Assembly: GCF_020382885.2 (NCBI RefSeq)
Contig: NC_058516.1
Coordinates: 11,089,902 to 11,153,901, forward strand
DNA length: 64,000 bases
From: Scatophagus argus
Taxonomy: Eukaryota; Chordata; Actinopteri; Scatophagidae
Direction: 5' to 3'
Part shown: piece after piece, positions 912-41,264 of the stretch
How the letters are laid out: each line of letters starts with the position of its first letter
Position numbering within the stretch: position 1 is the first letter of the stretch
Notes under the pieces: model-generated
Database searches by the model: none
What the model was told of the DNA's origin: nothing
What the model saw: the letters and a program-made list of their open reading frames with translations, nothing else
Translations under genes and position numbers: made by a program

Positions 912-1201
912 TGGTATGCATGGCAATTAAACAGTGCTTTCACAAGGTTGCTATGAAGACAAGCCAGCTCTTATTACCTGTAACAGCAAATGTTGATGTC
1001 CTGCATGTGTCCTTGTCTGAGCTTTTTATGTACCAACTAAAATATATATGAATTTGTATTAGATATTAAACATGATCTATTCTACATTTTGACTGAGACA
1101 ACTTTATATGAAATTGACCATGAAATTTGCTGATAATTTTCCTGATGAATAGGTTTTATCGTTTGGTCGATGAAATGTGGGGAAAAAAAGGGAAAAGTGA
1201 T
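1..1201. other. Unique flank left of the tandem array, with two GT microsatellites
   Basis: I see no gene here. The stretch contains two (TG)n tracts at about 760-782 and 879-910 separated by about 100 bases of ordinary sequence. The short open frames that cross it owe their length to these repeats. Homology with the 2.7-kb unit begins abruptly at about 1202. Confidence 0.7.
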
Positions 1202-3914
1202 TGTGGCAAATGATCAATATTGTCACTGATGTTCTTTCTGATATGAACGGTCATCAAAATTCTTTCCAATTAATTTTGTAGTAATTGTTGCACCTCTAAT
1301 CTACTGTATGTCTTATTTTCATTGTTGCGGTGACCAAAAGTACTTCTCACTCAGCACAGATTCTACTTTACTTTGACTTAACACAGTAGAATGTAGAAAA
1401 ACCTCTGAGGAGCTTTTTCACTGTGGACATGCTGCCCTCTTGTGGTGCTGAAGGAAATTGCATGTAGGCCTCACATCTCACCTACAGTAACAGCTATGTT
1501 TATCCATTAATTATTAGAGCATATACCAAACTGACATTTGGTATTAGCCTCAGGTTTGTTAAGAGAGCTCAAAAACATCCCCTTAAGCTTTGTGAAAATT
1601 CACTGAAGTTGAGCAATCAGTGCATCTCCAAAATTACAAAATAGTCTCTTGGTACCATACTCACACAAAGTTGGCCATTTTCAATTTTGGTGGTTTTTTA
1701 ATCGTAATGCACACAAATGTTTACAGAAGCAGTTGTTTTGTTAAACCAATGTGCATCAGTATGAATATTTGTGGTTTATTTTGAAGGCGTTTTTTTTTTT
1801 TTAGTTTTTTTTCCGTTTTGTATTTTGTATTATAAACTTTTTGTACTATCATTTAGATGTTTGTTTACAGGAATAATTGAGTTTTGCTCACGTTAACAGT
1901 TACACAAGTCTAGAGTGTGATTTCACTGATTCGTCTACATCCTGCATCGTCAGAAGTAATTTACAGTGTGCTGTCATTCTGTTGCTGCTGTCATTGTAAT
2001 ACATTTATTTAAATCTGACCCATAAGTGTGGCTTGTGTTTAGGTTATTATACTGCTTATAAATGTAGTGAAGTAAAGGGTAACAATGGTTAAAAAAAACG
2101 GGCAATCATAGTGGAGTGGAAGTGTGAAGAAACGCGTTAGAGCTTAATTTAAACGCAGCAAAATACAAACTTTCCACAAGAGGGCGCCATTTCACACCTC
2201 ACGGCCCATCCCGCCTTATATTTCTTCCTAACGTGCTATGAGTTTAGTAAAGCTAACCTTGATGTTTCACAATATAGCTTCCTGAATACGCCGAAAATGA
2301 GTCAGGTCACAATTTAGGTTCCTTCGTGAGTTATTGTACATTTTTAGATTAAGTTTAAATGTAACTTGCTCGCGGGTGTATGGTAGTGTTTTTGTTCACG
2401 TTGAACTGTTTTTTCATGCAAATTTTACTGCAAAACTTCAAAAATACGTGTCGCACCTGTTCCCGTGTACAAAATGCTTCAAACAGGGATTGGACTGCGC
2501 ATTTGCTTTTGTTTTGAAACGGCGGAAGTACTTCCTCTAACTGTAACACACAGCTTGACAGGGTCACGCTGCAAATCCAGCCGGATGTTTTGAGTCGCCA
2601 GTGTGTGATGGGAACATTTCCTCGTTTTGTTTGTTTGTTTGTTTTAAAGAAAAACTTCTCCAGCGGCGGCCATTGATCAGGTGAGTACCCCCAAACATTG
2701 TTAGCCGGCAAGAGCCGCAGAGAGGTCGTGACGGTGTTGGTTTGGTTTATTGCGCGTTCACCCAACATTTATAATATAGTTTGTGCTTCAACAGGCAAGG
2801 GGACGGGGATGCGTTTAAAGGCAGCATCGATCATTTACTTTGATGTGTTCAAGTGCGCCTCATTGTGGGAAAGTCGCTAGTTTAAATGCTACAAGTGGCT
2901 AATCTTGGTTTGTGTATTTTAGGGCCTGTGAGACTCCTGTTTTCCCATGTAATGTTATAATGTGCTACAATTAATGTTATAGTTAAGTCTGATGTTAAAG
3001 AACCTTTGAGTTTTAAGGGTCACTCCGGGAGTGGGAAGCCGTGTAGTAAAAGTGCAAAGCTAAACCAATCTAAACCTTGGAAATGAGTTTTAACGATATG
3101 AATGTTCATATTAGTAATAGTGTTATATAAGAGCCACTTTGAAAAGAAAAAAAATACTATTTTAACATGATCAGTAGTGTTTTTAACCTCAGACTTATGA
3201 GAAAGAGGTCGCCGTCCGGGCTCGTGTCGATGCAGTGAGACCTTCACCTGCTACCTGGAAATAAAGCCAAACGCAGGACAAGCAAGGAGGCTGACAAACC
3301 GAAGGTAGTGTTAGATTTTTCACTTGTTTACTTATATGTCAAGTTAAAAGTTTGGTCCAGACTTTCTCTACTTGGAAAGTGTCATGAGACAACTTTTGGT
3401 GTGATTTGGCGCGATACAAACCGAACTGAATTGCAGTGAAATTATAGTTAGTGGCTGCTTTATTAAAAGGGTTATTGAATTCATTCTTATGCCGAAAATA
3501 GTTACAGGAAGCTCTCGCTCCTTCATGAAAAATGGAAACATCTTTATATCAATGAGATATTATAATGGGGATATATTAGAATAAACCAAAAGTTAATGAA
3601 TTGGAGTTCCTTCCAACAAAATGCTTCCTGGGAGCTGGAACACACTGCAACACATAACAATAAATATATAATATAATAACAAAAATATGTTGTATATACT
3701 TGTATGTGTGTATACTTGTTGATATGTGCAGTTGCCCGTCACAGCCACAAGAGGGCGCTTCAGATGGAGGCGACCTACAGGTCTGAGCTCCACCTGATGG
3801 GGAGCAGAGCGACGACCCGCCTGAAGCGACTCGGAGTCACAGCTTGCGAATCACCGGCAGAGGACTGCGAGTAGACACCGGAAATGCACAGGAAAACGTT
3901 TCGGTTTCCACATT
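1202..3914 (+). repeat. Tandem unit 1
   Basis: Edge copy. It lacks 13 bases present in the other units just after GTGTTGGTTTG (the CACGCGCG segment) and 4 bases at GATCA/TTTACT. CTCF-like motifs: about 1433-1450 (reverse; here TGGTGCTG instead of TGGCGCTG), 2174-2188 (forward) and 3745-3758 (forward). Donor after the GC island at 2681. The 36-codon frame is 3764-3874. It carries block variant A. Confidence 0.95.
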
Positions 3915-6646
3915 TGTGGCAAATGATCAATATTGTCACTGATGTTCTTTCTGATATGAACGGTCATCAAAATTCTTTCCAATTAATTTTGTAGTAATTG
4001 TTGCACTGTATGTCTTATTTTCATTGTTGCGGTGACCAAAAGTACTTCTCACTCAGCACAGATTCTACTTTACTTTGACTTAACACAGTAAAATGTAGAA
4101 AAACCTCTGAGGAGCTTTTTCACTGTGGACATGCTGCCCTCTTGTGGCGCTGAAGGAAATTGCATGTAGTTAATGGCCTCACATCTCACCTACAGTAAAA
4201 ACAGCTATGTTTATCCATTAATTATTAGAGCATGGACCAAACTGACATTTGGTATTAGCCTCAGGTTTGTTAAGAGAGCTCAAAAACATCCCCTTAAGCT
4301 TTGTGAAAATTCACTGAAGTTGAGCATTCAGTGCATCTCCAAAATTACAAAATAGTCTCTTGGTACCATACTCACACAATGTTGGCCATTTTGAATTGTG
4401 GTGGTTTTTGAATCGTGATGCACACAAATGTTTACAGAAGCAGTTGTTTTGTTAAACCAATGTGCATCAGTGTGAATATTTATGGTTTATTTTGAAGGCA
4501 AGGTTTTTTTTTTTAGTTTTTTTCCGTTTTGTATTTTGTATTATTAACTTTTTGTACTATCATTTAGATGTTTGTGTACAAGAATAATTGAGTTTTGTTC
4601 ACGTTAACTGTTACACAAGTCTAGAGTGTGATTTCACTGATTCGTCTACATCCTGCATCGTCAGAAGTAATTTACAGTGTGATGTCATTCTGTTGCTGCT
4701 GTCATTGTAATACTTTTATTTATATCTGACCCATAAGTGTGGCTTGTGTTTAGGTTATTATGCGGCTTATAAATGTAGTGAAGTAAAGGGTAACAATGGT
4801 TAAAAAAAACGGGCAATCATAGTGGAGTGGAAGTGTGAAGAAACGCGTTAGAGCTTAATTTAAACGCAGCAAAATACAAACTTTCCACAAGAGGGCGCCA
4901 TTTCACACCTCACGGCCCATCCCGCCTTATATTTCTTCCTAACGTGCTATGAGTTTAGTAAAGCTAACCTTGATGTTTCACAATATAGCTTCCTGAATAC
5001 GCCGAAAATGAGCCAGGTCACAATTTAGGTTCCTTCGTGAGTTTTTGTACATTTTAGATTAAGTTTAAATGTAACTTGCTCGCAGGTGTATGGTAGTGTT
5101 TTTTTCACGTTGAACTGTTTTTTAATGCAAATTTTACTGCAAAACTTAAAAAATACGTGTCGCACCTGTTCCCGTGTACAAAATGCTTCAAACAGGGATT
5201 GGACTGCGCATTTGCTTTTGTTTTGAAACGGCGGAAGTACTTCCTCTAACTCTAACCCACAGTTTGACAGGGTCACGCTGCAAATCCAGCCGGATGTTTT
5301 GAGTCGCCAATGTGTGATGGGAACATTTCCTCGTTTTGTTTGTTTGTTTGTTTGTTTTAAATAAAAACTTCTCCAGCGGCGGCCATTGATCAGGTGAGTA
5401 CCCCCAAACATTGTTAGCCGGTAAGAGCCGCAGAGAGGTCGTGACGGTGTTGGTTTGCACGCGCGTGTTTGGTTTATTGCGCGTTCACCCAACATTTATA
5501 ATATAGTTTGTGCTTCAACAGGCAAGGGGACGGGGATGCGTTTAAAGGCAGCATCGATCAGCCATTTTACTTTGATGTGTTCAAGTGCGCCTCATTGTGG
5601 GAAAGTCGCTAGTTTAAATGCTACAAGTGGCTAATCTTGGTTTGTGTATTTTAGTGCCTGTGAGACTCCTGTTTTCCCATGTAATGTTATAATGTGCTAC
5701 AATTAATGTTATAGTTAAGTCTGATGTTAAAGAACCTTTGAGTTTTAAGGGTCACTCCGGGAGTGGGAAGCCGTGTAGTAAAAGTGCAAAGCTAAACCAA
5801 TCTAAACCTTGGAAATGAGTTTTAACGATATGAATGTTCATATTAGTAATAGTGTTATATAAGAGCCACTTTGAAAAGAAAAAAAATACTATTTTAATAT
5901 GATCAGTAGTGTTTTTAACCTCAGACTTATGAGAAAGAGGTCGCCGTCCGGGCTCGTGTCGATGCAGTGAGACCTTCACCTGCCACCTGGAAATAAAGCC
6001 AAACGCAGGACAAGCAAGCAGGCTGACAAACCGAAGGTAGTGTTAGATTTTTCTCTCGTTTACTTATATGTCAAGTTAAAAGTTTGGTCCAGACTTTCTC
6101 TACTTGGAAAGTGTCTTGAGACAACTTTTGGTGTGATTTGGCGCGATACAAACCGAACTGAATTGCAGTGAAATTATAGTTAGTGGCTGCTTTATGAAAA
6201 GGGTTATTGAATTCATTCTTATGCCGAAAATAGTTACAGGAAGCTCTCGCTCCTTCATGAAAAATGGAAACATCTTTATATCAATGAGATATTATAATGG
6301 GGATATATTAGAATAAACCAAAAGTTAATGAATTGGAGTTCCTTCCAACAAAATGCTTCCTGGGAGCTGGAACACACTGCAACACATAACAATAAATATA
6401 TAATATAATAACAAAAATATGTTGTATATACTTGTATGTGTGTATACTTGTTGATATGTGCAGTTGCCCGCCACAGCCACAAGAGGGCGCTTCAGATGGA
6501 GGCGACCTACAGGTCTGAGCTCCACCTGATGGGGAGCAGAGCGACGACCCGCCTGAAGCGACTCGGAGTCACAGCTTGCGAATCACCGGCAGAGGACTGC
6601 GAGTAGACACCGGAAATGCACAGGAAAACGTTTCGGTTTCCACATT
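3915..6646 (+). repeat. Tandem unit 2
   Basis: CTCF-like motifs at about 4135-4151 (reverse), 4885-4899 and 6477-6490 (forward). Donor at 5394. The 36-codon frame is 6496-6606. It carries block variant A. It lacks the CCTCTAATCTA stretch found after TTGTTGCA in units 1, 3 and 6. Confidence 0.95.
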
Positions 6647-9381
6647 TGTGGCAAATGATCAATATTGTCACTGATGTTCTTTCTGATATGAACGGTCATC
6701 AAAATTCTTTCCAATTAATTTTGTAGTAATTGTTGCACCTCTAATCTACTGTATGTCTTATTTTCATTGTTGCGGTAAAAGTACTTCTCACTCAGCACAG
6801 ATTCTACTTTACTTTGACTTAACACAGTAAAATGTAGAAAAACCTCTGAGGAGCTTTTTCACTGTGGACATGCTGCCCTCTTGTGGCGCTGAAGGAAATT
6901 GCACGTAGTTAATGGCCTCACATCTCACCTACAGTAAGAACAGCTATGTTTATCCATTAATTATTAGAGCATGGACCAAACTGACATTTGGTATTAGCCT
7001 CAGGTTTGTTAAGAGAGCTCAAAAACATCCCCTTAAGCTTTGTGAAAATTCACTGAAGTTGAGCAATCAGTGCATCTCCAAAATTACAAAATAGTCTCTT
7101 GGTACCATACTCACACAAAGTTGGCCATTTTGAATCGTAATGCACACCTTATGTTGAAAATGTTTACAGAAGCAGTTGTTTTGTTAAACCAATGTGCATC
7201 AGTATGAATATTTGTGGTTTATTTTGAAGGCGTTTTTTTTTTTTTTTAGTTTTTTTTCCGTTTTGTATTTTGTATTATAAACTTTTTGTACTATCATTTA
7301 GATGTTTGTGTACAGGAATAATTGAGTTTTGCTCACGTTAACAGTTACACAAGTCTAGAGTGTGATTTCACTGATTCGTCTACATCCTGCATCGTCAGAA
7401 GTAATTTACAGTGTGCTGTCATTCTGTTGCTGCTGTCATTGTAATACTTTTATTTAAATCTGACCCATAAGTGTGGCTTGTGTTTAGGTTATTATGCTGC
7501 TTATAAATGTAGTGAAGTAAAGGGTAACAATGGTTAAAAAAAACGATCAATCATAGTGGAGTGGAAGTGTGAAGAAACGCGTTAGAGCTTAATTTAAACG
7601 CAGCAAAATACAAACTCTCCACAAGAGGGCGCCATTTCACACCTCACGGCCCATCCCGCCTTATATTTCTTCCTAACGTGCTATGAGCTTAGTAAAGCTA
7701 ACCTTGATGTTTCACAATATAGCTTCCTGAATACGCCGAAAATGAGCCAGGTCACAATTTAGGTTCCTTCGTGAGTTATTGTACATTTTTAGATTAAGTT
7801 TAAATGTAACTTGCTCGCAGGTGTATGGTAGTGTTTTTGTTCACGTTGAACTGTTTTTTAATGCAAATTTTACTGCAAAACTTAAAAAATACGTGTCGCA
7901 CCTGTTCCCGTGTACAAAATGCTTCAAACAGGGATTGGACTGCGCATTTGCTTTTGTTTTGAAACGGCGGAAGTACTTCCTCTAACTCTAACCCACAGTT
8001 TGACAGGGTCACGCTGCAAATCCAGTCGGATGTTTTGAGTCGCCAATGTGTGATGGGAACATTTCCTCGTTTTGTTTGTTTGTTTGTTTGTTTTAAATAA
8101 AAACTTCTCCAGCGGCGGCCATTGATCAGGTGAGTACCCCCAAACATTGTTAGCCGGCAAGAGCCGCAGAGAGGTCGTGACGGTGTTGGTTTGCACGCGC
8201 GTGTTTGGTTTATTGCGCGTTCAACCAACATTTATAATATAGTTTGTGCTTCAACAGGCAAGGGGACGGGGATGCGTTTAAAGGCAGCATCGATCAGCCA
8301 TTTTACTTTGATGTGTTCAAGTGCGCCTCATTGTGGAAAGTCGCTAGCTTAAATGCTGCAAGTGGCTAATCTTGGTTTGTGTATTTTAGGGCCTGTGAGA
8401 CTCCTGTTTTCCCATGTAATGTTATAATGTGCTACAATTAATGTTATAGTTAAGTCTGATGTTAAAGAACCTTTGAGTTTTAAGGGTCACTCCGGGAGTG
8501 GGAAGCCGTGTAGTAAAAGTGCAAAGCTAAACCAATCTAAACCTTGGAAATGAGTTTTAACGATATGAATGTTCATATTAGTAATAGTGTTATATAAGAG
8601 CCACTTTGAAAAGAAAAAAAATACTATTTTAATATGATCAGTAGTGTTTTTAACCTCAGACTTATGAGAAAGAGGTCGCCGTCCGGGCTCGTGTCGATGC
8701 AGTGAGACCTTCACCTGCCACCTGGAAATAAAGCTAAACGCAGGACAAGCAAGCAGGCTGACAAACCGAAGGTAGTGTTAGATTTTTCACTTGTTTACTT
8801 ATATGTCAAGTTAAAAGTTTGGTCCAGACTTTCTCTACTTGGAAAGTGTCATGAGACAACTTTTGGTGTGATTTGGCGCGATACAAACCGAACTGAATTG
8901 CAGTGAAATTATAGTTAGTGGCTGGTTTATGAAAAGAGTTATTGAATTAATTCTTATGCCGAAAATAGTTACAGGAAGCTCTCGCTCCTTCATGAAAAAT
9001 GGAAACATCTTTATATCAATGAGATATTATAATGGGGATATATTAGGATAAACCAAAAGTTAATGAATTGGAGTTCCTTCCAACAAAATGCTTCCTGGGA
9101 GCTGGAACACACTGCAACACATAACAATAAATATATAATATAATAACAAAAATATGTTGTATATACTTGTATGTGTGTATACTTGTTGATATGTGCAGTT
9201 GCCCGTCACAGCCACAAGAGGGCGCTTCAGATGGAGGCGACCTACAGGTCTGAGCTCCACCTGATGGGGAGCAGAGCGACGACCCGCCTGAAGCGACTCG
9301 GAGTCACAGCTTGCGAATCACCGGCAGAGGACTGCGAGTAGACACCGGAAATGCACAGGAAAACGTTTCGGTTTCCACATT
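6647..9381 (+). repeat. Tandem unit 3
   Basis: CTCF-like motifs at about 6874-6890 (reverse), 7619-7633 and 9212-9225 (forward). Donor at 8130. The 36-codon frame is 9231-9341. Block variant A. It shares with units 4 and 5 a marker near 7130 (CACACCTTATGTTGAAAATG in place of the GTGGTGGTTTTT stretch). Its right two-thirds is nearly identical to unit 4. Confidence 0.95.
7955..8129 (+). promoter_or_regulatory. Promoter-like GC island ending in a splice donor (unit 3; present in all units)
   Basis: The segment contains GCGGAAGTACTTCC (two overlapping ETS-type GGAAG cores as a palindrome), then GGCGGCCATTGATCAG, a YY1-like CCAT context, directly followed by GTGAGTACC, a near-consensus 5' splice site. 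The donor lies at 2681, 5394, 8130, 10837, 13541, 16261 and 18961 in the seven units. A matching acceptor (GTGCTTCAACAG) follows about 130 bases later, at 8246-8257 in this unit. A TATA-less promoter with first exon is my inference; no transcript can be seen from DNA alone. Confidence 0.35.
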
Positions 9382-12089
9382 TGTGGCAAATGATCAATAT
9401 TGTCACTGATGTTCTTTCTGATATGAACGGTCATCAAAATTCTTTCCAATTAATTTTGTAGTAATTGTTGCACTGTATGTCTTATTTTCATTGTTGCGGT
9501 GACCAAAAGTACTTCTCACTCAGCACAGATTCTACTTTACTTTGACTTAACACAGTAAAATGTAGAAAAACCTCTGAGGAGCTTTTTCACTGTGGACATG
9601 CTGCCCTCTTGTGGCGCTGAAGGAAATTGCACGTAGTTAATGGCCTCACATCTCACCTACAGTAAGAACAGCTATGTTTATCCATTAATTATTAGAGCAT
9701 GGACCAAACTGACATTTGGTATTAGCCTCAGGTTTGTTAAGAGAGCTCAAAAACATCCCCTTAAGCTTTGTGAAAATTCACTGAAGTTGAGCAATCGGTG
9801 CATCTCCAAAATTACAAAATAGTCTCTTGGTACCATACTCACACAAAGTTGGCCATTTTGAATCGTAATGCACACCTTATGTTGAAAATGTTTACAGAAG
9901 CAGTTGTTTTGTTAAACCAATGTGCATCAGTATGAATATTTGTGGTTTATTTTGAAGGCGTTTTTTTTTTTAGTTTTTTTTCCGTTTTGTATTTTGTATT
10001 ATTAACTTTTTGTACTATCATTTAGATGTTTGTGTACAGGAATAATTGAGTTTTGCTCACGTTAACAGTTACACAAGTCTAGAGTGTGATTTCACTGATT
10101 CGTCTACATCCTGCATCGTCAGAAGTAATTTACAGTGTGCTGTCATTGTAATACTTTTATTTATATCTGACCCATAAGTGTGGCTTGTGTTTAGGTTATT
10201 ATGCTGCTTATAAATGTAGTGAAGTAAAGGGTAACAATGGTTAAAAAAAACGGGCAATCATAGTGGAGTGGAAGTGTGAAGAAACGCGTTAGAGCTTAAT
10301 TTAAACGCAGCAAAATACAAACTCTCCACAAGAGGGCGCCATTTCACACCTCACGGCCCATCCCGCCTTATATTTCTTCCTAACGTGCTATGAGCTTAGT
10401 AAAGCTAACCTTGATGTTTCACAATATAGCTTCCTGAATACGCCGAAAATGAGCCAGGTCACAATTTAGGTTCCTTCGTGAGTTATTGTACATTTTTAGA
10501 TTAAGTTTAAATGTAACTTGCTCGCAGGTGTATGGTAGTGTTTTTGTTCACGTTGAACTGTTTTTTAATGCAAATTTTACTGCAAAACTTAAAAAATACG
10601 TGTCGCACCTGTTCCCGTGTACAAAATGCTTCAAACAGGGATTGGACTGCGCATTTGCTTTTGTTTTGAAACGGCGGAAGTACTTCCTCTAACTCTAACC
10701 CACAGTTTGACAGGGTCACGCTGCAAATCCAGTCGGATGTTTTGAGTCGCCAATGTGTGATGGGAACATTTCCTCGTTTTGTTTGTTTGTTTGTTTGTTT
10801 TAAATAAAAACTTCTCCAGCGGCGGCCATTGATCAGGTGAGTACCCCCAAACATTGTTAGCCGGCAAGAGCCGCAGAGAGGTCGTGACGGTGTTGGTTTG
10901 CACGCGCGTGTTTGGTTTATTGCGCGTTCAACCAACATTTATAATATAGTTTGTGCTTCAACAGGCAAGGGGACGGGGATGCGTTTAAAGGCAGCATCGA
11001 TCAGCCATTTTACTTTGATGTGTTCAAGTGCGCCTCATTGTGGGAAAGTCGCTAGCTTAAATGCTGCAAGTGGCTAATCTTGGTTTGTGTATTTTAGGGC
11101 CTGTGAGACTCCTGTTTTCCCATGTAATGTTATAATGTGCTACAATTAATGTTATAGTTAAGTCTGATGTTAAAGAACCTTTGAGTTTTAAGGGTCACTC
11201 CGGGAGTGGGAAGCCGTGTAGTAAAAGTGCAAAGCTAAACCAATCTAAACCTTGGAAATGAGTTTTAACGATATGAATGTTCATATTAGTAATAGTGTTA
11301 TATAAGAGCCACTTTGAAAAGAAAAAAAATACTATTTTAATATGATCAGTAGTGTTTTTAACCTCAGACTTATGAGAAAGAGGTCGCCGTCCGGGCTCGT
11401 GTCGATGCAGTGAGACCTTCACCTGCCACCTGGAAATAAAGCTAAACGCAGGACAAGCAAGCAGGCTGACAAACCGAAGGTAGTGTTAGATTTTTCACTT
11501 GTTTACTTATATGTCAAGTTAAAAGTTTGGTCCAGACTTTCTCTACTTGGAAAGTGTCATGAGACAACTTTTGGTGTGATTTGGCGCGATACAAACCGAA
11601 CTGAATTGCAGTGAAATTATAGTTAGTGGCTGGTTTATGAAAAGAGTTATTGAATTAATTCTTATGCCGAAAATAGTTACAGGAAGCTCTCGCTCCTTCA
11701 TGAAAAATGGAAACATCTTTATATCAATGAGATATTATAATGGGGATATATTAGGATAAACCAAAAGTTAATGAATTGGAGTTCCTTCCAACAAAATGCT
11801 TCCTGGGAGCTGGAACACACTGCAACACATAACAATAAATATATAATATAATAACAAAAATATGTTGTATATACTTGTATGTGTGTATACTTGTTGATAT
11901 GTGCAGTTGCCCGTCACAGCCACAAGAGGGCGCTTCAGATGGAGGCGACCTACAGGTCTGAGCTCCACCTGATGGGGAGCAGAGCGACGACCCGCCTGAA
12001 GCGACTCGGAGTCACAGCTTGCGAATCACCGGCAGAGGACTGCGAGTAGACACCGGAAATGCACAGGAAAACGTTTCGGTTTCCACATT
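9382..12089 (+). repeat. Tandem unit 4
   Basis: CTCF-like motifs at about 9602-9618 (reverse), 10326-10340 and 11920-11933 (forward). Donor at 10837. The 36-codon frame is 11939-12049. Block variant A at 11294-11396. It lacks a 17-base TCTGTTGCTGCTGTCAT stretch present in units 1, 2, 3 and 6. Its left third matches unit 5 and its right part matches unit 3. Confidence 0.95.
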
Positions 12090-14786
12090 TGTGGCAAATG
12101 ATCAATATTGTCACTGATGTTCTTTCTGATATGAACGGTCATCAAAATTCTTTCCAATTAATTTTGTAGTAATTGTTGCACTGTATGTCTTATTTTCATT
12201 GTTGCGGTGACCAAAAGTACTTCTCACTCAGCACAGATTCTACTTTACTTTGACTTAACACAGTAAAATGTAGAAAAACCTCTGAGGAGCTTTTTCACTG
12301 TGGACATGCTGCCCTCTTGTGGCGCTGAAGGAAATTGCACGTAGTTAATGGCCTCACATCTCACCTACAGTAAGAACAGCTATGTTTATCCATTAATTAT
12401 TAGAGCATGGACCAAACTGACATTTGGTATTAGCCTCAGGTTTGTTAAGAGAGCTCAAAAACATCCCCTTAAGCTTTGTGAAAATTCACTGAAGTTGAGC
12501 AATCGGTGCATCTCCAAAATTACAAAATAGTCTCTTGGTACCATACTCACACAAAGTTGGCCATTTTGAATCGTAATGCACACCTTATGTTGAAAATGTT
12601 TACAGAAGCAGTTGTTTTGTTAAACCAATGTGCATCAGTATGAATATTTGTGGTTTATTTTGAAGGCGTTTTTTTTTTTTAGTTTTTTTTCCGTTTTGTA
12701 TTTTGTATTATTAACTTTTTGTACTATCATTTAGATGTTTGTGTACAGGAATAATTGAGTTTTGCTCACGTTAACAGTTACACAAGTCTAGAGTGTGATT
12801 TCACTGATTCGTCTACATCCTGCATCGTCAGAAGTAATTTACAGTGTGCTGTCATTGTAATACTTTTATTTATATCTGACCCATAAGTGTGGCTTGTGTT
12901 TAGGTTATTATGCTGCTTATAAATGTAGTGAAGTAAAGGGTAACAATGGTTAAAAAAAACGGGCAATCATAGTGGAGTGGAAGTGTGAAGAAACGCGTTA
13001 GAGCTTAATTTAAACGCAGCAAAATACAAACTCTCCACAAGAGGGCGCCATTTCACACCTCACGGCCCATCCCGCCTTATATTTCTTCCTAACGTGCTAT
13101 GAGCTTAGTAAAGCTAACCTTGATGTTTCACAATATAGCTTCCTGAATACGCCGAAAATGAGCCAGGTCACAATTTAGGTTCCTTCGTGAGTTATTGTAC
13201 ATTTTTAGATTAAGTTTAAATGTAACTTGCTCGCAGGTAGTGTTTTTTTTCACGTTGAACTGTTTTTTAATGCAAATTTTACTGCAAAACTTAAAAAATA
13301 CGTGTCGCACCTGTTCCCGTGTACAAAATGCTTCAAACAGGGATTGGACTGCGCATTTGCTTTTGTTTTGAAACGGCGGAAGTACTTCCTCTAACTGTAA
13401 CACACAGCTTGACAGGGTCACGCTGCAAATCCAGCCGGATGTTTTGAGTCGCCAGTGTGTGATGGGAACATTTCCTCGTTTTGTTTGTTTGTTTGTTTGT
13501 TTTTAAATTAAAAACTTCTCCAGCGGCGGCCATTGATCAGGTGAGTACCCCCAAACATTGTTAGCAAGAGCCGCAGAGAGGTCGTGACGGTGTTGGTTTG
13601 CACGCGCGTGTTTGGTTTATTGCGCGTTCACCCAACATTTATAATATAGTTTGTGCTTCAACAGGCAAAGTGACGGGGATGCGTTTAAAGGCAGCATCGA
13701 TCAGCCATTTTACTTTGATGTGTTCAAGTGCGCCTCATTGTGGGAAAGTCGCTAGTTTAAATGCTACAAGTGGCTAATCTTGGTTTGTGTATTTTAGTGC
13801 CTGTGAGACTCCTGTTTTCCCATGTAATGTTATAATGTGCTACAATTAATGTTATAGTTAAGTCTGATGTTAAAGAACCTTTGAGTTTTAAGGGTCACTC
13901 CGGGAGTGGGAAGCCGTGTAGTAAAAGTGCAAAGCTAAACCAATCTAAACCTTGGAAATGAGTTTTAACGATATGAATGTTCATATTAGTAATATCGCCT
14001 GAAATGTCACAATTCTGTCAGAAGTAAAACAGTGTTATGTGCTTGTTTTTCTGCATGATAGCGAAGTGGGATGAAAGCGGGCTCGTGTCGATGCAGTGAG
14101 ACCTTCACCTGCCACCCAAGTGCCACCTGGAAATAAAGCCAAACGCAGGACAAGCAAGCAGGCTGACAAACCGAAGGTAGTGTTAGATTTTTCACTTGTT
14201 TACTTATATGTCAAGTTAAAAGTTTGGTCCAGACTTTCTCTACTTGGAAAGTGTCATGAGACAACTTTTGGTGTGATTTGGCGCGATACAAACCGAACTG
14301 AATTGCAGTGAAAGTATAGTTAGTGGCTGCTTTATTAAAAGGGTTATTGAATTCATTCTTATGCCGAAAATAGTTACAGGAAGCTCTCGCTCCTTCATGA
14401 AAAATGGAAACATCTTTATATCAATGAGATATTATAATGGGGATATATTAGGATAAACCAAAAGTTAATGAATTGGAGTTCCTTCCAACAAAATGCTTCC
14501 TGGGAGCTGGAACACACTGCAACACATAACAATAAATATATAATATAATAACAAAAATATGTTGTATATACTTGTATGTGTGTATACTTGTTGATATGTG
14601 CAGTTGCCCGCCACAGCCACAAGAGGGCGCTTCAGATGGAGGCGACCTACAGGTCTGAGCTCCACCTGATGGGGAGCAGAGCGACGACCCGGCTGAAGCG
14701 ACTCGGAGTCACAGCTTGCGAATCACCGGCAGAGGACTGCGAGTAGACACCGGAAATGTACCGGAAAACGTTTCGGTTTCCACATT
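12090..14786 (+). repeat. Tandem unit 5
   Basis: CTCF-like motifs at about 12310-12326 (reverse), 13035-13049 and 14617-14630 (forward). Donor at 13541. The 36-codon frame is 14636-14746. It carries block variant B at 13995-14080, and a small extra duplication of the CCACC segment just after it. Confidence 0.95.
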
Positions 14787-17499
14787 TGTGGCAAATGATC
14801 AATATTGTCACTGATGTTCTTTCTGATATGAACGGTCATCAAAATTCTTTCCAATTAATTTTGTAGTAATTGTTGCACCTCTAATCTTCTGCATGTCTTA
14901 TTTTCATTGTTGCAGTGATCAAAAGTACTTCTCACTCAGCACAGATTCTACTTTACTTTGACTTAACACAGTAAAATGTAGAAAAACCTCTGAGGAGCTT
15001 TTTCACTGTGGACATGCTGCCCTCTTGTGGCGCTGAAGGAAATTGCACGTAGTTAATGGCCTCACATCTCACCTACAGTAAAAACAGCTATGTTTATCCA
15101 TTAATTATTAGAGCATGGACCAAACTGACATTTGGTATTAGCCTCAGGTTTGTTAAGAGAGCTCAAAAACATCCCCTTAAGCTTTGTGAAAATTCACTGA
15201 AGTTGAGCAATCAGTGCATCTCCAAAATTACAAAATAGTCTCTTGGTACCATACTCACACAAAGTTGGCCATTTTGAATTGTGGTGGTTTTTTAATCGTA
15301 ATGCACACAAATGTTTACAGAAGCAGTTGTTTTGTTAAACCAATGTGCATCAGTATGAATAGAAGGCGTTTTTTTTTTAGTTTTTTTTCTGTTTTGTATT
15401 TTGTATTATTAACTTTTTGTACTATCATTTAGATGTTTGTGTACAGGAATAATTAAGTTTTGCTCACGTTAACAGTTACACAAGTCTAGAGTGTGATTTC
15501 ACTGATTCGTCTACATCCTGCATCGTCAGAAGTAATTTACAGTGTGCTGTCATTCTGTTGCTGCTGTCATTGTAATACTTTTATTTACATCTGACCCATA
15601 AGTGTGGCTTGTGTTTAGGTTATTATGCTGCTTATAAATGTAGTGAAGTAAAGGGTAACAATGGTTAAAAAAAACGATCAATCATAGTGGAGTGGAAGTG
15701 TGAAGAAACTCGTTAGAGCTTAATTTAAACGCAGCAAAATACAAACTCTCCACAAGACGGCGCCATTTCACACCTCACGGCCCATCCCGCCTTATATTTC
15801 TTCCTAACGTGCTATGAGTTTAGTAAAGCTAACCTTGATGTTTCACAATATAGCTTCCTGAATACGCCGAAAATGAGTCAGGTCACAATTTAGGTTCCTT
15901 CGTGAGTTATTGTACATTTTTAGATTAAGTTTAAATGTAACTTGCTCGCAGGTGTATGGTAGTGTTTTTTTTCACGTTGAACTGTTTTTTAATGCAAATT
16001 TTACTGCAAAACTTAAAAAATACGTGTCGCACCTGTTCCCGTGTACAAAATGCTTCAAACAGGGATTGGACTGCGCATTTGCTTTTGTTTTGAAACGGCG
16101 GAAGTACTTCCTCTAACTGTAACACACAGTTTGACAGGGTCACGCTGCAAATCCAGCCGGATGTTTTGAGTCGCCAATGTGTGATGGGAACATTTCCTCG
16201 TTTTGTTTGTTTGTTTGTTTGTTTTAAATAAAAACTTCTCCAGCGGCGGCCATTGATCAGGTGAGTACCCCCAAACATTGTTAGCCGGCAAGAGCCGCAG
16301 AGAGGTCGTGACGGTGTTGGTTTGCACGCGCATGTTTGGTTTATTGCGCGTTCAACCAACATTTATAATATAGTTTGTGCTTCAACAGGCAAGGTGACGG
16401 GGATGCGTTTAAAGGCAGCATCGATCAGCCATTTTACTTTGATGTGTTCAAGTGCGCCTCATTGTGGGAAAGTCGCTAGTTTAAATGCTACAAGTGGCTA
16501 ATCTTTGTTTGTGTATTTTAGGGCCTGTGAGACTCCTGTTTTCCCATGTAATGTTATAATGTGCTACAATTAATGTTATAGTTAAGTCTGATGTTAAAGA
16601 ACCTTTGAGTTTTAAGGGTCACTCCGGGAGTGGGAAGCCGTGTAGTAAAAGTGCAAAGCTAAACCAATCTAAACCTTGGAAATGAGTTTTAACGATATGA
16701 ATGTTCATATTAGTAATATCGCCTGAAATGTCACAATTCTGTCAGAAGTAAAACAGTGTTATGTGCTTGTTTTTCTGCATGATAGCGAAGTGGGATGAAA
16801 GCGGGCTCGTGTCGATGCAGCGAGACCTTCACCTGCCACCTGGAAATAAAGCCAAACGCAGGACAAGCAAGGAGGCTGACAAACCGAAGGTAGTGTTAGA
16901 TTTTTCGCTTGTTTACTTATATGTCAAGTTAAAAGTTTGGTCCAGACTTTCTCTACTTGGAAAGTGTCATGAGACAACTTTTGATGTGATTTGGCGCGAT
17001 ACAAACCGAACTGAATTGCAGTGAAATTATAGTTAGTGGCTGCTTTATGAAAAGGGTTATTGAATTCATTCTTATGCCGAAAATAGTTACAGGAAGCTCT
17101 CGCTCCTTCATGAAAAATGGAAACATCTTTATATCAATGAGATATTATGATGGGGATATATTAGGATAAACCAAAAGTTAATGAATTGGAGTTCCTTCCA
17201 ACAAAATGCTTCCTGGGAGCTGGAACACACTGCAACACATAACAATAAATATATAATATAATAACAAAAATATGTTGTATATACTTGTATGTGTGTATAC
17301 TTGTTGATATGTGCAGTTGCCCGCCACAGCCACAAGAGGGCGCTTCAGATGGAGGCGACCTACAGGTCTGATCTCCACCTGATGGGGAGCAGAGCGACGA
17401 CCCGGCTGAAGCGACTCGGAGTCACAGCTTGCGAATCACCGGCAGAGGACTGCGAGTAGACACCGGAAATGCACAGGAAAACGTTTCGGTTTCCACATT
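14787..17499 (+). repeat. Tandem unit 6
   Basis: CTCF-like motifs at about 15018-15034 (reverse), 15750-15764 (forward; AAGACGG instead of AAGAGGG, a core change) and 17330-17343 (forward). Donor at 16261. The 36-codon frame is 17349-17459, with GAT replacing GAG at codon 8. Block variant B at about 16719-16804. Confidence 0.95.
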
Positions 17500-20173
17500 T
17501 GTGGCAAATGATCAATAATTGTCACTGATGTTCTTTCTGATATGAACGGTCATCAAAATTCTTTCCAATTAATTTTGTAGTAATTGTTGCACCTCTAATC
17601 TACTGTATGTCTTATTTCCATTGTTGCAGTGATCAAAAGTACTTCTCACTCAGCACAGATTCTACTTTACTTTGACTTAACACAGTAAAATGTAGAAAAA
17701 CCTCTGAGGAGCTTTTTCACTGTGGACATGCTGCCCTCTTGTGGCGCTGAAGGAAATTGCACGTAGTTAATGGCCTCACATCTCACCTACAGTAAAAACA
17801 GCTATGTTTATCCATTAATTATTAGAGCATGGACCAAACTGACATTTGGTATTAGCCTCAGGTTTGTTAAGAGAGCTCAAAAACATCTCGTTAAGCTTTG
17901 TGAAAATTCACTGAAGTTGAGCAATCAGTGCATCTCCAAAATTACAAAATAGTCTCTTGGTACCATACTCACACAAAGTTGGCCATTTTGAATTGTGGTG
18001 GTTTTTGAATCGTGATGCACACAAATGTTTACAGAAGCAGTTGTTTTGTTAAACCAATGTGCATCAGTATGAATATTTATGGTTTATTTTGAAGGCGTTT
18101 TTTTTCTGTTTTGTATTTTGTATTATAAACTTTTTGTACTATCATTTAGATGTTTGTGTACAGGAATAATTGAGTTTTGCTCACGTTAACAGTTACACAA
18201 GTCTAGAGTGTGATTTCACTGATTCGTCTACATCCTGCATCGTCAGAAGTAATTTACAGTGTGCTGTCATTGTAATACTTTTATTTAAATCTGACCCATA
18301 AGTGTGGCTTGTGTTTAGGTTATTATGCTGCTTATAAATGTAGTGAAGTAAAGGGTAACAATGGTTAAAAAAAACGGGCAATCATAGTGGAGTGGAAGTG
18401 TGAAGAAACGCGTTAGAGCTTAATTTAAACGCAGCAAAATACAAACTCTCCACAAGAGGGCGCCATTTCACACCTCACGGCCCATCCCGCCTTATATTTC
18501 TTCCTAACGTGCTATGAGCTTAGTAAAGCTAACCTTGATGTTTCACAATATAGCTTCCTGAATACGCCGAAAATGAGTCAGGTCACAATTTAGGTTCCTT
18601 CGTGAGTTATTGTACATTTTTAGATTAAGTTTAAATGTAACTTGCTCGCGGGTGTATGGTAGTGTTTTTGTTCACGTTGAACTGTTTTTTAATGCAAATT
18701 TTACTGCAAAACTTAAAAAATACGTGTCGCACCTGTTCCCGTGTACAAAATGCTTCAAACAGGGATTGGACTGCGCATTTGCTTTTGTTTTGAAACGGCG
18801 GAAGTACTTCCTCTAACTGTAACACAGAGCTTGACAGGGTCACGCTGCAAATCCAGCCGGATGTTTTGAGTCGCCAGTGTGTGATGGGAACATTTCCTCG
18901 TTTTGTTTGTTTGTTTGTTTGTTTTAAATAAAAACTTCTCCAGCGGCGGCCATTGATCAGGTGAGTACCCCCAAACATTGTTAGCCGGTAAGAGCCGCAG
19001 AGAGGTGACGGTGTTGGTTTGCACGCGCGTGTTTGGTTTATTGCGCGTTCACCCAACATTTATAATATAGTTTGTGCTTCAACAGGCAAGGGGACGGGGA
19101 TGCGTTTAAAGGCAGCATCGATCAGCCATTTTACTTTGATGTGTTCAAGTGCGCCTCATTGTGGGAAAGTCGCTAGTTTAAATGCTACAAGTGGCTAATC
19201 TTGGTTTGTGTATTTTAGGGCCTGTGAGACTCCTGTTTTCCCATGTAATGTTATAATGTGCTACAATTAATGTTATAGTTAAGTCTGATGTTAAAGAACC
19301 TTTGAGTTTTAAGGGTCACTCCGGGAGTGGGAAGCCGTGTAGTAAAAGTGCAAAGCTAAACCAATCTAAACCTTGGAAATGAGTTTTAACGATATGAATG
19401 TTCATATTAGTAATAGTGTTATATAAGAGCCACTTTGAAAAGAAAAAAATTACTATTTTAATATGATCAGTAGTGTTTTTAACCTCAGACTTATGAGAAA
19501 GAGGTCGCTGTCCGGGCTCGTGTCGATGCAGTGAGACCTTCACCTGCCACCTGGAAATAAAGCCAAACGCAGGACAAGCAAGCAGGCTGACAAACCGAAG
19601 GTAGTGTTAGATTTTTCACTTGTTTACTTATATGTCAAGTTAAAAGTTTGGTCCAGACTTTCTCTACTTGGAAAGTGTCATGAGACAACTTTTGGTGTGT
19701 GATACAAACCGAACTGAATTGCAGTGAAATTATAGTTAGTGGCTGCTTTATGAAGAGGGTTATTGAATTCATTCTCATGCTGAAAATATGAAAAGGAAGC
19801 ATCTTTATATGAGTACATCTTTATATCAATGAGATATAATAATCAGGATATATTGGGGTAAACCAAAAGTTAATGAATTGGAGTTCCTTCCAACAAAACG
19901 CTTCCTGTGAGCCGGAAGACACTGCAACAGAAAAAAATATGTCGTATATGCTTGTATGTGTGTTTACTTGTCGATATCATTAACAGTGCAGTTGCCCGTC
20001 ACAGCCACAAGAGGGCGCTTCAGATGGAGGCGACCTACAGGTCTGAGCTCCACCTGATGGGGAGCAGAGCGACGACCCGGCTGAAGCGACTCGGAGTCAC
20101 AGCTTGCGAATCACCGGCAGAGGACTGCGAGTAGACACCGGAAATGCACAGGAAACGTTTCGGTTTCCACATT
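17500..20173 (+). repeat. Tandem unit 7 (right edge copy)
   Basis: CTCF-like motifs at about 17732-17748 (reverse), 18450-18464 and 20005-20018 (forward). Donor at 18961. The 36-codon frame is 20024-20134. Block variant A. The stretch 19700-19990 is clearly more diverged than in other copies, with several indels, as expected for an edge unit that escapes homogenisation. The following 36-codon segment is nevertheless conserved. Confidence 0.95.
20007..20134 (+). other. Exon-like segment with a conserved 36-codon frame (unit 7 copy)
   Basis: After an AG acceptor-like site (GTTGCCCGTCACAG) a frame of 36 codons begins at 20024 (MEATYRSELH...) and ends at TAG. It is rich in Arg, Glu, Ser and Thr and I do not recognise it. 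The same frame is intact in all seven units. Within its 111 bases I find two variable positions: CGC/CGG (both Arg) and one Glu to Asp change in unit 6. The frame is open upstream, so it could be the last coding part of a spliced gene. The overlapping CTCF-like motif could equally explain conservation at its 5' edge. Confidence 0.3.
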
Positions 20174-21300
20174 TGTTTGCCGAGTGTGTATTTGTGTGTG
20201 TGAAATGAAATATAAAATGAAATATCTACACTGGACGTGGCAAACGAGAATTAGCAGGCCTGCGAATGAGCCACAACATTACAACCGCTGTAAGTGGATT
20301 TTGAAAAGTATAGCAAACTGTCTGTAGACAAATGAAAGCTTTATTGGCTGTGAATAAAAGCTGTCAAGCGATGGAAAATAAAACAGAAAAAGCAGTTGTG
20401 GAGGAGAACAACATGTTGTATTTCCTTCTTCTTCATGTCACGTCAGTCAGTCGTGTCCTCTTTAATTGCAGTCGCAACCGGATTTTAATTTGCATTTGTC
20501 AGGGTTTGTGGTCGACGTGAGAAGAAATGTCAGTCCAAGATCCCAAACTCATGAGGGAAAGCGAGAGGACATAGAGATGGTAGAAGGACTGCATGGAGAT
20601 TCGATTACAGACAGGCTAAAAGGTCAATAATAATGTCGTCATAACCCTGTCCGTCCTGTCTGTGTGTCCTGTCTCTTACATGTTCCTCCAACATCCAGCA
20701 AGCAAACAGGTCTTATTCACAACAGTCTGTGTGTGTGTGTGAGTGAAAAAACAGAAAGAAGTAAAAGTAAAATAGATGCCGGCACTCCCTCTAGCGGTCG
20801 ACTTCTGGAATAGCATAAAAGGTGTAACAGCAGTATGAATACACTTGATTGTACTGATGTCAAATCATACTGGCTGACGGAGGACAGACCCTGTAAGAAT
20901 ACTGCGAGTGTTCAGGTTTAAAAAAAGCATAAAGAAACACAAAGCAATTATTTAATTAAAGATAAGGTTGCTCTTTGTTGCAAAAATAATCATGTTTTTG
21001 TTTTTTGATGACTTTTAATTGGAGCTGTGAGGAACCAAGCGAAGGTCCAAATGTTGACATGAACTAAAGGTGACAAAGCATTAAAAGGATTCCAGTGTGT
21101 CGCACGCACAGCAGCAGCTCAGCGAGACGAGCAGCTGATGGAGCTGCTGTTCCCTTCAAAGTTTTCTTTTCACTAACGTAAACAATAAAGCAGGAGATTC
21201 GGCGGTCCATGTTGAGGTATCGCTGCATACCTCAACACGATAAGCTCCTGCCCGGTGACGTTATTACGTTATCCATCTTCAATTACGTATTGTCGCTGCA
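20174..21300. other. Intergenic, no gene recognised
   Basis: The sequence after the array holds a short GT tract near 20728-20741 and a CTCF-like CCCTCTAGCGGTCG at about 20787. Open frames are short and carry no recognisable domain. Confidence 0.5.
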
Positions 21301-21370
21301 CAGGTGCGTATCCTCCATGCGATTGGCTGCTTGTAACGAGTCACAGGTGTCTGTTAATGAGGCGGGCCAG

Positions 21371-22885
21371 TATAAAAGCGACAGTCCTTCCCCTGCTTCT
21401 TTCTTTGCGCCCTGTCATCTCTTCCGGGTCGGAGGTCGTTTGGCCCGTCAGGTATGTCCGCGTGCTGCTTTGTGTTTTCTTACTGCTCTTAAAGCGTCGT
21501 TGTTGTTCTTGTGTTGCAGGGCGACTGCTCGTGTGCGGCTCCGTTTGTTGGCTGAGGTAAGTGTCTTCTTTCTTTACGCTACGGTCGATGCTCTCAGGTG
21601 TCTGACGCTATTGTTCCTGCAGGTAAACGCCGGTGGCTGCCAGGAGTCCTGTCCCTTTGTCCGCTCCTGCCTCCTGTTGTGTGAGGGTGTGTGTCCGCTA
21701 ACAAGGTTTGTATGTGTGCTGTAGCGTGCGCCTCAGTATTGTTTTCAGCGTAGTTAACAATAGTAAAAGCGTTACGGCGAGAGGCGGGTGCACCGTGAAC
21801 CGGCTGCCGGTCAGTCGCAGTGCCGACACACGAAAACGCACACGCTCAGTCACACGAAGGGGCCATGCAGAGTAGCGTGCATGTTTCGAGGAGGAAACCC
21901 ACGCAGGCACAGGGTGAACATGCAAAGTCCACACAGAAGGCCCACACCGGGGTGTGATAAAAGCGATGCAGACGTTAGCCTAAGATCACATGTTGGGACA
22001 CGGAGTCTAAATCAGTATCCGTAGTAGAAGTAAGTTGGTATCTGTAAAAATAAGTGTCTTTATGCAAGTACATATAAGTATATTAGTCTAAGTATCGGTA
22101 ATATAAATGTAACAGTCTAATGGAGCGTGTGAGTTCAGTCTTAAAGGGGGACGAGAGCTACTTTGACAAACTGTGGGCTCCCTTTTTGAATCGCCTACCA
22201 GGTGACGTAGCGACTCCAGTACGCAGAGGTGGCTGCAGTATGGACCGGCGCCCCTATAGTGTTGTTTTTATCTTGTTTTTCCCTGTTTTTATAGTTTTTA
22301 TTTCATGCAGGTAAAGTGCTGCTCCACCTCCACTGTCGTTGGTCCCAGCTGAGCCTGGTTGTGCAGCGGTGTCACCTGTTTATTTGTCTGCGCTTGGCAC
22401 AGAACGGTGATCTGTGTGGTAAGTCGAGGTGCTGCTATGGCGGAGTAAGTGTTGGCAGTATGTTAGTTCATGCATTTATTTATGTATGTTTGTGTTTTTG
22501 TATGTCAGCACGTGAATGTGTAGCAGGTAGAGTAGTATTAGTTGCAAAGTATTTATGGTTGCATGTCATGTGAATGTGTAGCAGGTGGAGTGCTGCTCCA
22601 GCTCCACTGTGACAGGGTGTCACTTGTTTATGGCTGCTTAGCTTCTTATGTTTCATGAGCCTGAGTGTTGTGGTATACAAATGTGGTTTATTCCTTTTCC
22701 AGGGCAGGAGCTGAGAGGCAGTTGCTCCTGGTGGTGTTTCCCCTCTCACTCACCATAACTTGGTGTGGCATGTGGTGATTTGGTTTGTAGTGTCCTTGCC
22801 CTGCCTTTGTCTGTTTCCAAACTGTTTATTTTGTCCCTCTGTATTGTAAGTCATTTGTAATAAATGAATATAAGCTAAATGTGTG
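21371..22885 (+). ncRNA. Putative spliced long noncoding RNA unit with TATA box and poly(A) signal
   Basis: A TATAAAAG box lies at 21371-21378, with an ATTGG (inverted CCAAT) about 50 bases upstream. Good splice signals follow in order: donor CAG/GTATGT after 21451; acceptor TTGTGTTGCAG before 21520 and donor GAG/GTAAGT after 21556 (a 37-base exon); acceptor TTCCTGCAG before 21623; acceptor TTTCATGCAG before 22311 with donor GTG/GTAAGT after 22418; acceptor GTGTAGCAG before 22585; acceptor TTCCTTTTCCAG before 22703. AATAAA lies at 22859-22864. Open frames across the region run through these junctions and show no known domain, so I read it as noncoding. The exon starts at 22311 and 22585 are related (both continue GTGCTGCTCCA), suggesting internal duplication. 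Exon pairing is inferred. Confidence 0.5.
21776..21957 (+). repeat. Diverged fish dispersed repeat inside the noncoding unit
   Basis: Segments such as GCGAGAGGCGGG, GGTCAGTCGCAG, AAACCCACGCAGGCACAGG and GAACATGCAAA match, in order, the full-length dispersed repeats at 42170-42530 and 59993-60348. This copy is older or more rearranged and lacks the CCATTTTCTATACCGC start. Confidence 0.8.
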
Positions 22886-22998: not shown

Positions 22999-23059
22999 GA
23001 AAGGTCAGTCTTCCAAAAACCAGTTGAAGTACAATAATCTGTAAAAAAAATTTTTTAAC

Positions 23060-29000: not shown

Positions 29001-29229
29001 GTACTTTAAATATTTCACTAAGTATTTACTCTAAATATTTCACTAAGTACTTACTCTAAATTTTTCTAAATATTTCACTAAGTACTTACTCTAAATTTTT
29101 TCTAAATATTTCACTAAGTACTTACTCTAAATTTTTCACCAAGTACTTACTCTAAATTTTTCTAAATATTTCACTAAGTACTTACTCTAAATTTGTCTAA
29201 ATATTTCACCAAGTACTTACTTTAAATAC
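23060..29229 (+). repeat. AT-rich minisatellite, about 25-bp monomer, 6.2 kb
   Basis: The monomer reads CACTAAGTATTTACTCTAAA plus TATTT (25 bases). A 21-base form lacks ACTC (CACCAAGTACTTTAAATATTT). Other variants carry CTAAGCAC, a TTTTTTCTAAATATTT junction, or CAGTAAG. Roughly 250 monomers are present. Variants recur in the same order over blocks of about 70-250 bases, so the array has higher-order structure. The plus strand is C-rich relative to G (about four C and one G per monomer). No protein-coding frame or transposon part is present, and the lack of unique spacers excludes a CRISPR array. Confidence 0.98.
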
Positions 29230-40192: not shown

Positions 40193-41178
40193 AACAGCAC
40201 CTGACCTTATGGTTTACTCTTAAGATGCACAGAATGCATGTCAGTGGAAAAACACGCTCTCTGAGGAAAAGTCAGCAAACTCACATCACTGACAACTAAA
40301 CTGTACTGGTCCATCTGCTGGTTGCTGATCTGGAGTTTTGGTATGAATGCGGGACAAGCACACTTTAAGTGTATTTAGCAATTTAAACGTACACAAACAT
40401 TCCTGATGTAAACAAGGAAATGGCTCTGTTCTCGCGTAACTTCCATGTTTGAGTCTATGATGCTGAAACAGCTGTGCTCTCTTTTCACAGCAAAAAGCAC
40501 AATACTTGCACTTCCAAATCGCTGTGTTTGAAATCTGTTTTGAACGGTGGTCTGTAACGTCTGGACTTTGAAACTGTTTGTTTCTAATGTCCCCTAATTA
40601 GCCAACATTACCCCAAGTGTCCTTCTGAGGGCCACTGTGGTCAAATTTATGAACTGACAAGTATCAGCAGCAAAGCGAAGAATAACGACTGGGCGGCGTT
40701 TCCTCTCTCCCTACACATGGAGAGACCACCTCGAAGAACCCCGTCGTCTCAGTCGAGATTCCGGTGTGTTATCTATAGCGGTGAAACTCATTACAGTGAT
40801 ATTTTATTGCTCATAAATCTACTACCGTGAGAAAACTAGCTCTATGATCTCTGACTCGACAAGCACTGACTTGAAGTCTGAAGGCAGTAAGTGCTATTTG
40901 TTGGGGTAGTATTGTCGGGCGTTAACTTGACTTTTGAAATAAGTACATGTCACTTTTGGGGGGTGACTGCATATGACCAATGCATAAGAGAAGGAAATCA
41001 CATCCAGATCACCTCAAATGGAGACACTGATGATTGCTTTGTTCATAAGTGCTTCTCTTTGGGGTTGTCTTTGTTGTGACTTGGTCACCTGACAAATACT
41101 GAGGCTGTGTATTTACAATATTCGTTGCATGACTAGCCAAAAGCCTAAACTTGTCCCCAAAATCACCCAAACACAAGC

Positions 41179-41264
41179 ACTGTGTTCTGCAGATGTCCCT
41201 GGTGGCCAAATCTGGTAGCACACTCAGAGGAGCCAACTTTTGTTTTTCCAGTATTACATTCCAT
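41179..41264 (-). pseudogene. Fragment of a C2H2 zinc-finger gene exon
   Basis: Minus-strand translation gives ECNTGKTKVG..ECATRFGHQGHLQN, matching [24 protein letters not shown] of the gene at 55022-57181. At DNA level the 85 bases align with 55477-55560 without large gaps. Homology ends abruptly on both sides; a run of ATTT repeats flanks one end. Confidence 0.75.

Follow-up and report, generated by a model that had tools for sequence, protein, structure and literature searches.

Introduction

To our knowledge, the macrosatellites reported to bear CTCF sites are mammalian, and the one that has been studied most closely is linked to X inactivation. Here we describe a tandem array in the fish Scatophagus argus that is well supported as a small teleost macrosatellite, with well-supported CTCF-type sites in each of its units. 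The array lies in a 64,000-nucleotide stretch of contig C24 (NC_058516.1, 13.2 Mb; the assembly, GCF_020382885.2, holds 570.7 Mb in 48 contigs) that spans C24:11089902-11153901. This whole stretch is referred to as the window, and coordinates are those of the window unless a contig is named. A macrosatellite is a tandem array with a unit of 2 to over 12 kb (PMC3218863) that occupies one or two places in a genome and differs in copy number from one individual to another. Among the papers listed by searches of the open-licence PMC literature, none was recognised by its title or the start of its abstract as dealing with a CTCF-bearing macrosatellite from fish.

The fish array resembles DXZ4 of the mammalian X chromosome in being an uninterrupted tandem array of units of about 3 kb, with a CTCF-type site in every unit and a possible internal promoter. 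The two differ in base composition, since the unit consensus in the fish has a GC content of 39.2% whereas DXZ4 is GC-rich (62% in the lemur stretch reported in PMC3218863). They also differ in the arrangement of the sites. The fish unit carries three in mixed orientation (two forward and one reverse), while the motifs of mouse Dxz4 are described as having one orientation and those of human DXZ4 as forming two sets in opposite orientation (PMC5899087). DXZ4 is X-linked and adjoins PLS3; the flanking genes recognised here are of the SATB and KCNH types (PLS3 was not searched for). FIRRE, also on the mammalian X, shares with the fish array its many CTCF sites, and a motif search is reported to give a similar number in each orientation (PMC5899087). 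The binding and folding of DXZ4 have been shown experimentally and it has an internal promoter and transcription, and FIRRE encodes a long non-coding RNA, whereas for the fish array binding and folding are predictions and the unit has a CpG-rich promoter-like stretch.

Two other comparisons bear on the size and the makeup of the unit. The tRNA variable-number tandem repeat (VNTR) at human 1q23.3 likewise consists of tandem multi-kilobase units, and these are reported to bind CTCF (PMC4041453); its unit, however, is GC-rich, measures 7.3 kb and contains tRNA, while ARAGORN found no tRNA in the fish window. D4Z4 has a unit of about 3.3 kb, similar in size to that of the fish array, and is reported to act as a CTCF-dependent insulator (PMC2639723, PMC3616921). 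It is subtelomeric and encodes DUX4, whereas the two array frames that were submitted to Pfam revealed no gene of that kind.

Results

Structure of the tandem array

Self-comparison of the window and alignment of the units showed a tandem array at 1201-20176 that consists of seven units placed head to tail and in phase on the forward strand. The first-pass annotation of this DNA had proposed seven 2.7-kb units at 1202-20173, a description that was confirmed with slightly refined ends. The units are located at 1201-3913 (unit 1, 2713 bp), 3914-6645 (unit 2, 2732 bp), 6646-9380 (unit 3, 2735 bp), 9381-12088 (unit 4, 2708 bp), 12089-14785 (unit 5, 2697 bp), 14786-17498 (unit 6, 2713 bp) and 17499-20176 (unit 7, 2678 bp). 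In the alignment of the seven, pairwise identity ranges from 95.5% to 99.8%, the upper value being that of units 3 and 4, and short stretches of differing sequence occur in units 3-5 near alignment column 500 and in units 5-6 near column 1960. Both ends of the array are in phase with a unit boundary, and its last four bases, TTGT, are a copy of the start of the unit. The in-phase ends and the four shared bases point to a plain tandem duplication that was later multiplied. With seven units of 2678-2735 bp, the array falls within the size range of macrosatellites, and no second full-length unit was present among the 43 scored matches of the genome search described below.

The array was also considered as a coding sequence. 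The longest open frame in unit 2 encodes 156 amino acids and no long one is present. The Pfam search covered ten proteins from the window, and the two among them that were array frames gave no match above cut-off; coding for a known protein was rejected on these grounds. A tRNA or known RNA family in the array was likewise rejected.

CTCF-type sites and their scores

Sites were scored with a vertebrate CTCF matrix after JASPAR MA0139.1, and the background consisted of 185 kb around the array and genome-wide pattern counts. Each unit contains three CTCF-type cores, of which A and C are forward and B is reverse, which agrees with the number and orientation that had been claimed. The 12-mer CCACAAGAGGGC is exact at 20 of the 21 expected places; only one core is altered, by a single G to C in the A site of unit 6 (at 15747-15765), which reads CCACAAGACGGC and scores 16.7 bits. 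It had been claimed that 19 of 21 cores were unchanged, with exceptions in units 1 and 6. The exception in unit 6 was upheld, but in unit 1 it is site B that deviates, at one base just 5′ of the core and outside it. All 21 array sites scored above 16.5 bits in the matrix scan (range 16.7-22.1), and 20 of them reached at least 19.4 bits.

The A sites consist of the core only and are located on the forward strand at 2171-2189 and 4882-4900 in units 1 and 2 (21.8 bits each) and at 7616-7634, 10323-10341, 13032-13050 and 18447-18465 in units 3, 4, 5 and 7 (22.1 bits each), in addition to the altered site of unit 6. The B sites are bipartite and lie on the reverse strand, with a gap of 11 bases between an upstream half-site and the core. 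That of unit 1 spans 1430-1462, its 19-mer occupying 1430-1448, and scores 19.4 bits, while those of units 2 to 7, at 4132-4164, 6871-6903, 9599-9631, 12307-12339, 15015-15047 and 17729-17761, score 20.8 bits each. The C sites are also bipartite, forward, and have a gap of 12 bases; they are found at 3727-3760 (19-mer 3742-3760), 6459-6492, 9194-9227, 11902-11935, 14599-14632, 17312-17345 and 19987-20020 in units 1 to 7, and all score 20.9 bits.

Such matches are rare by chance. In 3 Mb of sequence simulated from the dinucleotides of unit 2, five matches of at least 19 bits were obtained, equivalent to 0.0046 per unit, compared with three in unit 2 itself. At a threshold of at least 16.5 bits, the 18.98-kb array accounts for 21 matches and the remainder of the surrounding 224 kb, of which 20 kb is N, for 13, so that the density of matches in the array is approximately 16-fold higher (over 185 kb of non-N sequence). 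The 14-mer CCACAAGAGGGCGC occurs 46 times genome-wide, with 13 of these occurrences in the array, and its reversed control does not occur at all. Single sites with higher scores than those in the array are present elsewhere in the window, at 51608 (24.6 bits) and 53442 (22.2 bits). Since sites A, B and C of a unit share only a core of 12-14 bases, they arose separately; internal duplication as the origin of the three sites was rejected for the same lack of common sequence beyond this core.

Upstream half-sites

The half-site TGCA(A/G)T precedes the core in all seven B sites (as TGCAAT, gap 11) and all seven C sites (as TGCAGT, gap 12) and in none of the seven A sites, so that 14 of the 21 sites in the array are bipartite. 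All 14 match the pattern TGCARTN{11,12}CCASNAGRKGGC, which has 275 matches genome-wide against one for the reversed control. When the same core was placed at a gap of 14 or 15 bases (TGCARTN{14,15}), there were 12 matches genome-wide and none for the control. Among the 100 of the 275 matches that were listed, none of which reaches C24, 15 represent one nearly identical sequence on contig C2. The remaining 246 gap-11/12 matches are still approximately 20-fold above the 12 at gap 14-15, and the array sites thus have the spacing that is preferred in this genome. A relaxed form of the half-site accompanies two of 11 cores outside the array in the examined loci, one of them at gap 11 and the other twice, at gaps 17 and 22.

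Published work places the optimal upstream CTCF motif, TGCAATCCC or TGCAATACCC, 5-6 nt from the core (PMC10287918), and a spacing of 5 or 6 nt is also given in PMC9004084. Approximately 13-15% of CTCF sites are reported to carry an upstream motif, which is described as typical of insulator and barrier sites in a source that also cites a screen in which two to four tandem copies were required (PMC12885311). Backed by the spacing preference of the genome, we infer that the gap of 11 or 12 bases measured here probably corresponds to the published register of 5-6 nt.

The repeated sequence on C2 is a separate observation. Between C2:26043049 and 26783698, the bipartite CTCF-type site TGCAATACCTACATTGTTCCACCAGATGGC occurs at least 15 times over 740 kb, with 11 copies in forward orientation followed by four in reverse. 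One copy differs by a base, and two that were examined share blocks of 98.9% (1.3 kb) and 99.7% (0.7 kb) identity. These repeats are a second, dispersed way to multiply CTCF-type sites, and further clusters may be present among the other matches of the bipartite pattern.

CTCF genes of the fish

Two ctcf loci with zinc-finger exons near those of human were found, on contigs C7 (25.574-25.577 Mb) and C1 (15.429-15.431 Mb). The query was a zinc-finger stretch of human CTCF, matched piece by piece. Pieces that fall within an exon are approximately 82-96% identical to human CTCF and match better than other zinc-finger genes do for these pieces, while scores fall for pieces that extend beyond the end of an exon, some of which have a stop at that point. 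The presence of two CTCF genes with near-human zinc fingers makes it likely that the vertebrate matrix is applicable, and, judging from the scores and the bipartite form, the array sites would very likely be recognised by CTCF.

Relatives of the unit

In the genome search with the unit, 39 of 357 first-look candidates were scored and gave 43 matches, the array itself not being among those listed. Among the scored matches, full-length units are confined to the array, and the other hits are partial or are short dispersed repeats. In this scored set, partial relatives beyond such repeats were found only on C24, at 9.51, 10.06, 10.40 and 10.62 Mb; a further match at 4.38 Mb on the same contig overlaps a dispersed-repeat stretch and has no CTCF-type site. 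The right flank of the array (20177-21678) is duplicated, together with the end of the unit, at approximately 10.06 and 10.40 Mb with identities of 96.4% and 95.1%, and both copies run to the edge of the compared loci. They retain site C and its half-site exactly. In the copies at 9.51 and 10.62 Mb, site A reads CCACAAGATGGCGCC and scores 23.3 bits, with 16 extra bases just upstream relative to the array. In terms of the sites that the relatives cover, site A is strong in both of two and site C in two of three.

Two observations concern the neighbourhood of these copies. By eye, the right flank at 21340-21720 has TATA-box-like and splice-like sequences and possibly belongs to an unnamed gene, and frames that look to be of the zc3h12 type stand beside the relative at 10.62 Mb (C24:10609183-10617182), by recognition only.

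Genomic surroundings

A SATB-type homeodomain exon lies to the left of the window and a KCNH-type channel exon to the right. Within the window, the Pfam search recognised a FISNA-NACHT gene (48335-50188), a PRY-SPRY frame (45430-45894) and a C2H2 zinc-finger gene (55022-56455), all on the reverse strand, which gives an immune-gene-like neighbourhood. Five other window frames (33443, 36694, 53805, 59016 and 21209) gave nothing above the Pfam cut-off, and no Rfam family reached the gathering threshold in 160 kb of flanking sequence. A dazl-like exon in locus L011 was noted by recognition only, with no match among solved structures. An AT-rich satellite of 6.2 kb at 23054-29228 is composed of units of approximately 25 bases and is G-poor on the forward strand (23% GC, GC skew of approximately -0.62). 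A 355-bp sequence is present twice, at 42171-42522 and 59992-60345, with 94.6% identity between the copies.

The window also contains a stray 324-bp piece of miR-430 sequence with two hairpins, at 40859-41182. Ten loci of the miR-430 cluster were compared with it, and the best match in each has 97-99% identity. The main miR-430 cluster is located at C24:12.514-12.558 Mb, 1.4 Mb away. When 65 of 141,356 first-look candidates were scored, 62 of 64 matches fell in this cluster and the other two in the window. The window was rejected as the miR-430 locus, because it holds only this stray piece at such a distance from the cluster.

Discussion

The arrangement of the sites suggests how the array might work. 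Across each unit junction, site C and the site B that follows it are convergent at a distance of approximately 400 bp, which gives six such pairs, while B and A inside each unit point away from each other. Convergent C-B pairs combined with divergent B-A pairs should allow the array to stop loop-extruding cohesin from either side. We propose that a 2.7-kb segment in which three CTCF sites had already arisen separately was amplified in tandem to give the seven units. CTCF would then be predicted on all 21 sites when the DNA is unmethylated, most firmly on those of types B and C, which are the 14 bipartite ones. The array would form a redundant boundary or insulator, effective in both directions, that separates the SATB-gene side from the NLR/KCNH-gene side. 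Topologically associating domains of zebrafish are reported to be less well insulated once CTCF is lost, and boundary motifs there are preferentially convergent (PMC8438036). We favour this reading and consider the chances about even that the amplified segment acts as such a boundary, with CTCF occupancy and the stalling of cohesin as presumed steps. An architectural element comparable to DXZ4 had been suggested for this array in the first-pass annotation. The CTCF-type sites in that suggestion are borne out by the scores, the half-sites and the two CTCF genes, and the parallel with DXZ4 is limited to operation, so that the two would share a mode of action rather than a common origin.

Several observations weigh against a boundary function. 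The motif columns vary at 3 of 57 positions, compared with 171 of 2568 ungapped columns elsewhere in the unit (P(3 or fewer) = 0.47), and conservation of the motifs within the array was rejected as proof of selection because there is no excess of it. The 99.8% identity of units 3 and 4 indicates recent turnover of the array. The relative at 9.51 Mb has a weak match (12.0 bits) at the position of site C, and site B is covered by none of the relatives. Finally, the upstream consensus given in PMC12885311, resembling CAGCTGTTCC, has no letter match to the half-sites of the array.

With motif columns that show no excess of conservation over the remaining sequence of the unit, neutral recent amplification is a serious rival. 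According to this explanation, an ordinary recent duplication carried three CTCF sites along; CTCF may bind, but seven copies add nothing and their number drifts. The turnover just described fits it, as do the in-phase ends with four shared bases, which are as expected from plain duplication, and the further segmental copies on C24. On the other hand, all 14 bipartite sites are intact, and the two single-unit relatives that cover site A retain it despite the adjacent 16-base difference in length. In fact, the core difference in their site A falls at a position where the matrix tolerates both letters. We regard passive amplification of this kind as a real possibility, though not a probable one.

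The unit may instead be chiefly a CpG-rich promoter together with a first exon, belonging to a non-coding RNA or to a broken gene family of C24, to which the CTCF sites would be accessory. A CpG-rich promoter-like stretch with a possible splice donor is located at approximately 4814-5613 in unit 2 (consensus approximately 901-1700), where the observed/expected ratio of CpG is 0.88-1.22 in 200-base windows compared with 0.54 for the whole window, and this stretch is largely retained in the relatives at 9.51 and 10.62 Mb. The donor-like sequence, CAG/GTGAGT, is present in the unit and in the 9.51-Mb copy but is altered in the 10.62-Mb relative. In addition, GGAAACCGAAACGT, which we take to be similar to an interferon-stimulated response element, is identical near the end of all seven units (for example, 3896-3909 on the reverse strand). 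The short open frames of the unit, at most 156 amino acids in unit 2, and the two array frames that gave no Pfam match argue against a promoter array, and we consider it unlikely. It would be compatible with CTCF binding, because DXZ4 has both, and a promoter array, which the CpG-rich stretch and the donor-like sequence allow, would strengthen the likeness to DXZ4, not diminish it.

A more far-reaching proposal is that the array, with its mostly bipartite sites, is the hub of a family of CTCF elements confined to C24, of which the relatives at approximately 9.51, 10.06, 10.40 and 10.62 Mb would be single members, and that this family shapes the folding of the small, miR-430-bearing chromosome as an independently arisen, non-mammalian counterpart of DXZ4 and FIRRE. 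We consider this unlikely. It is highly improbable that the sites are methylated or heterochromatic and rarely bound by CTCF: DXZ4 of macaque is reported to bind CTCF on the inactive X and to be heterochromatic on its active counterpart (PMC3218863), an extensive AT-rich satellite as well as immune-type genes are present in the window, and a CpG lies inside the cores of A and C, but CpG is not depleted around site A, which suggests a stretch that is unmethylated in the germ line, and CCACAAGAGGGCAGC of site B contains no CpG.

A fish array with opposed pairs of bipartite sites would make it possible to ask whether multiplying CTCF sites in tandem suffices for a strong boundary, in a vertebrate that lacks X inactivation.

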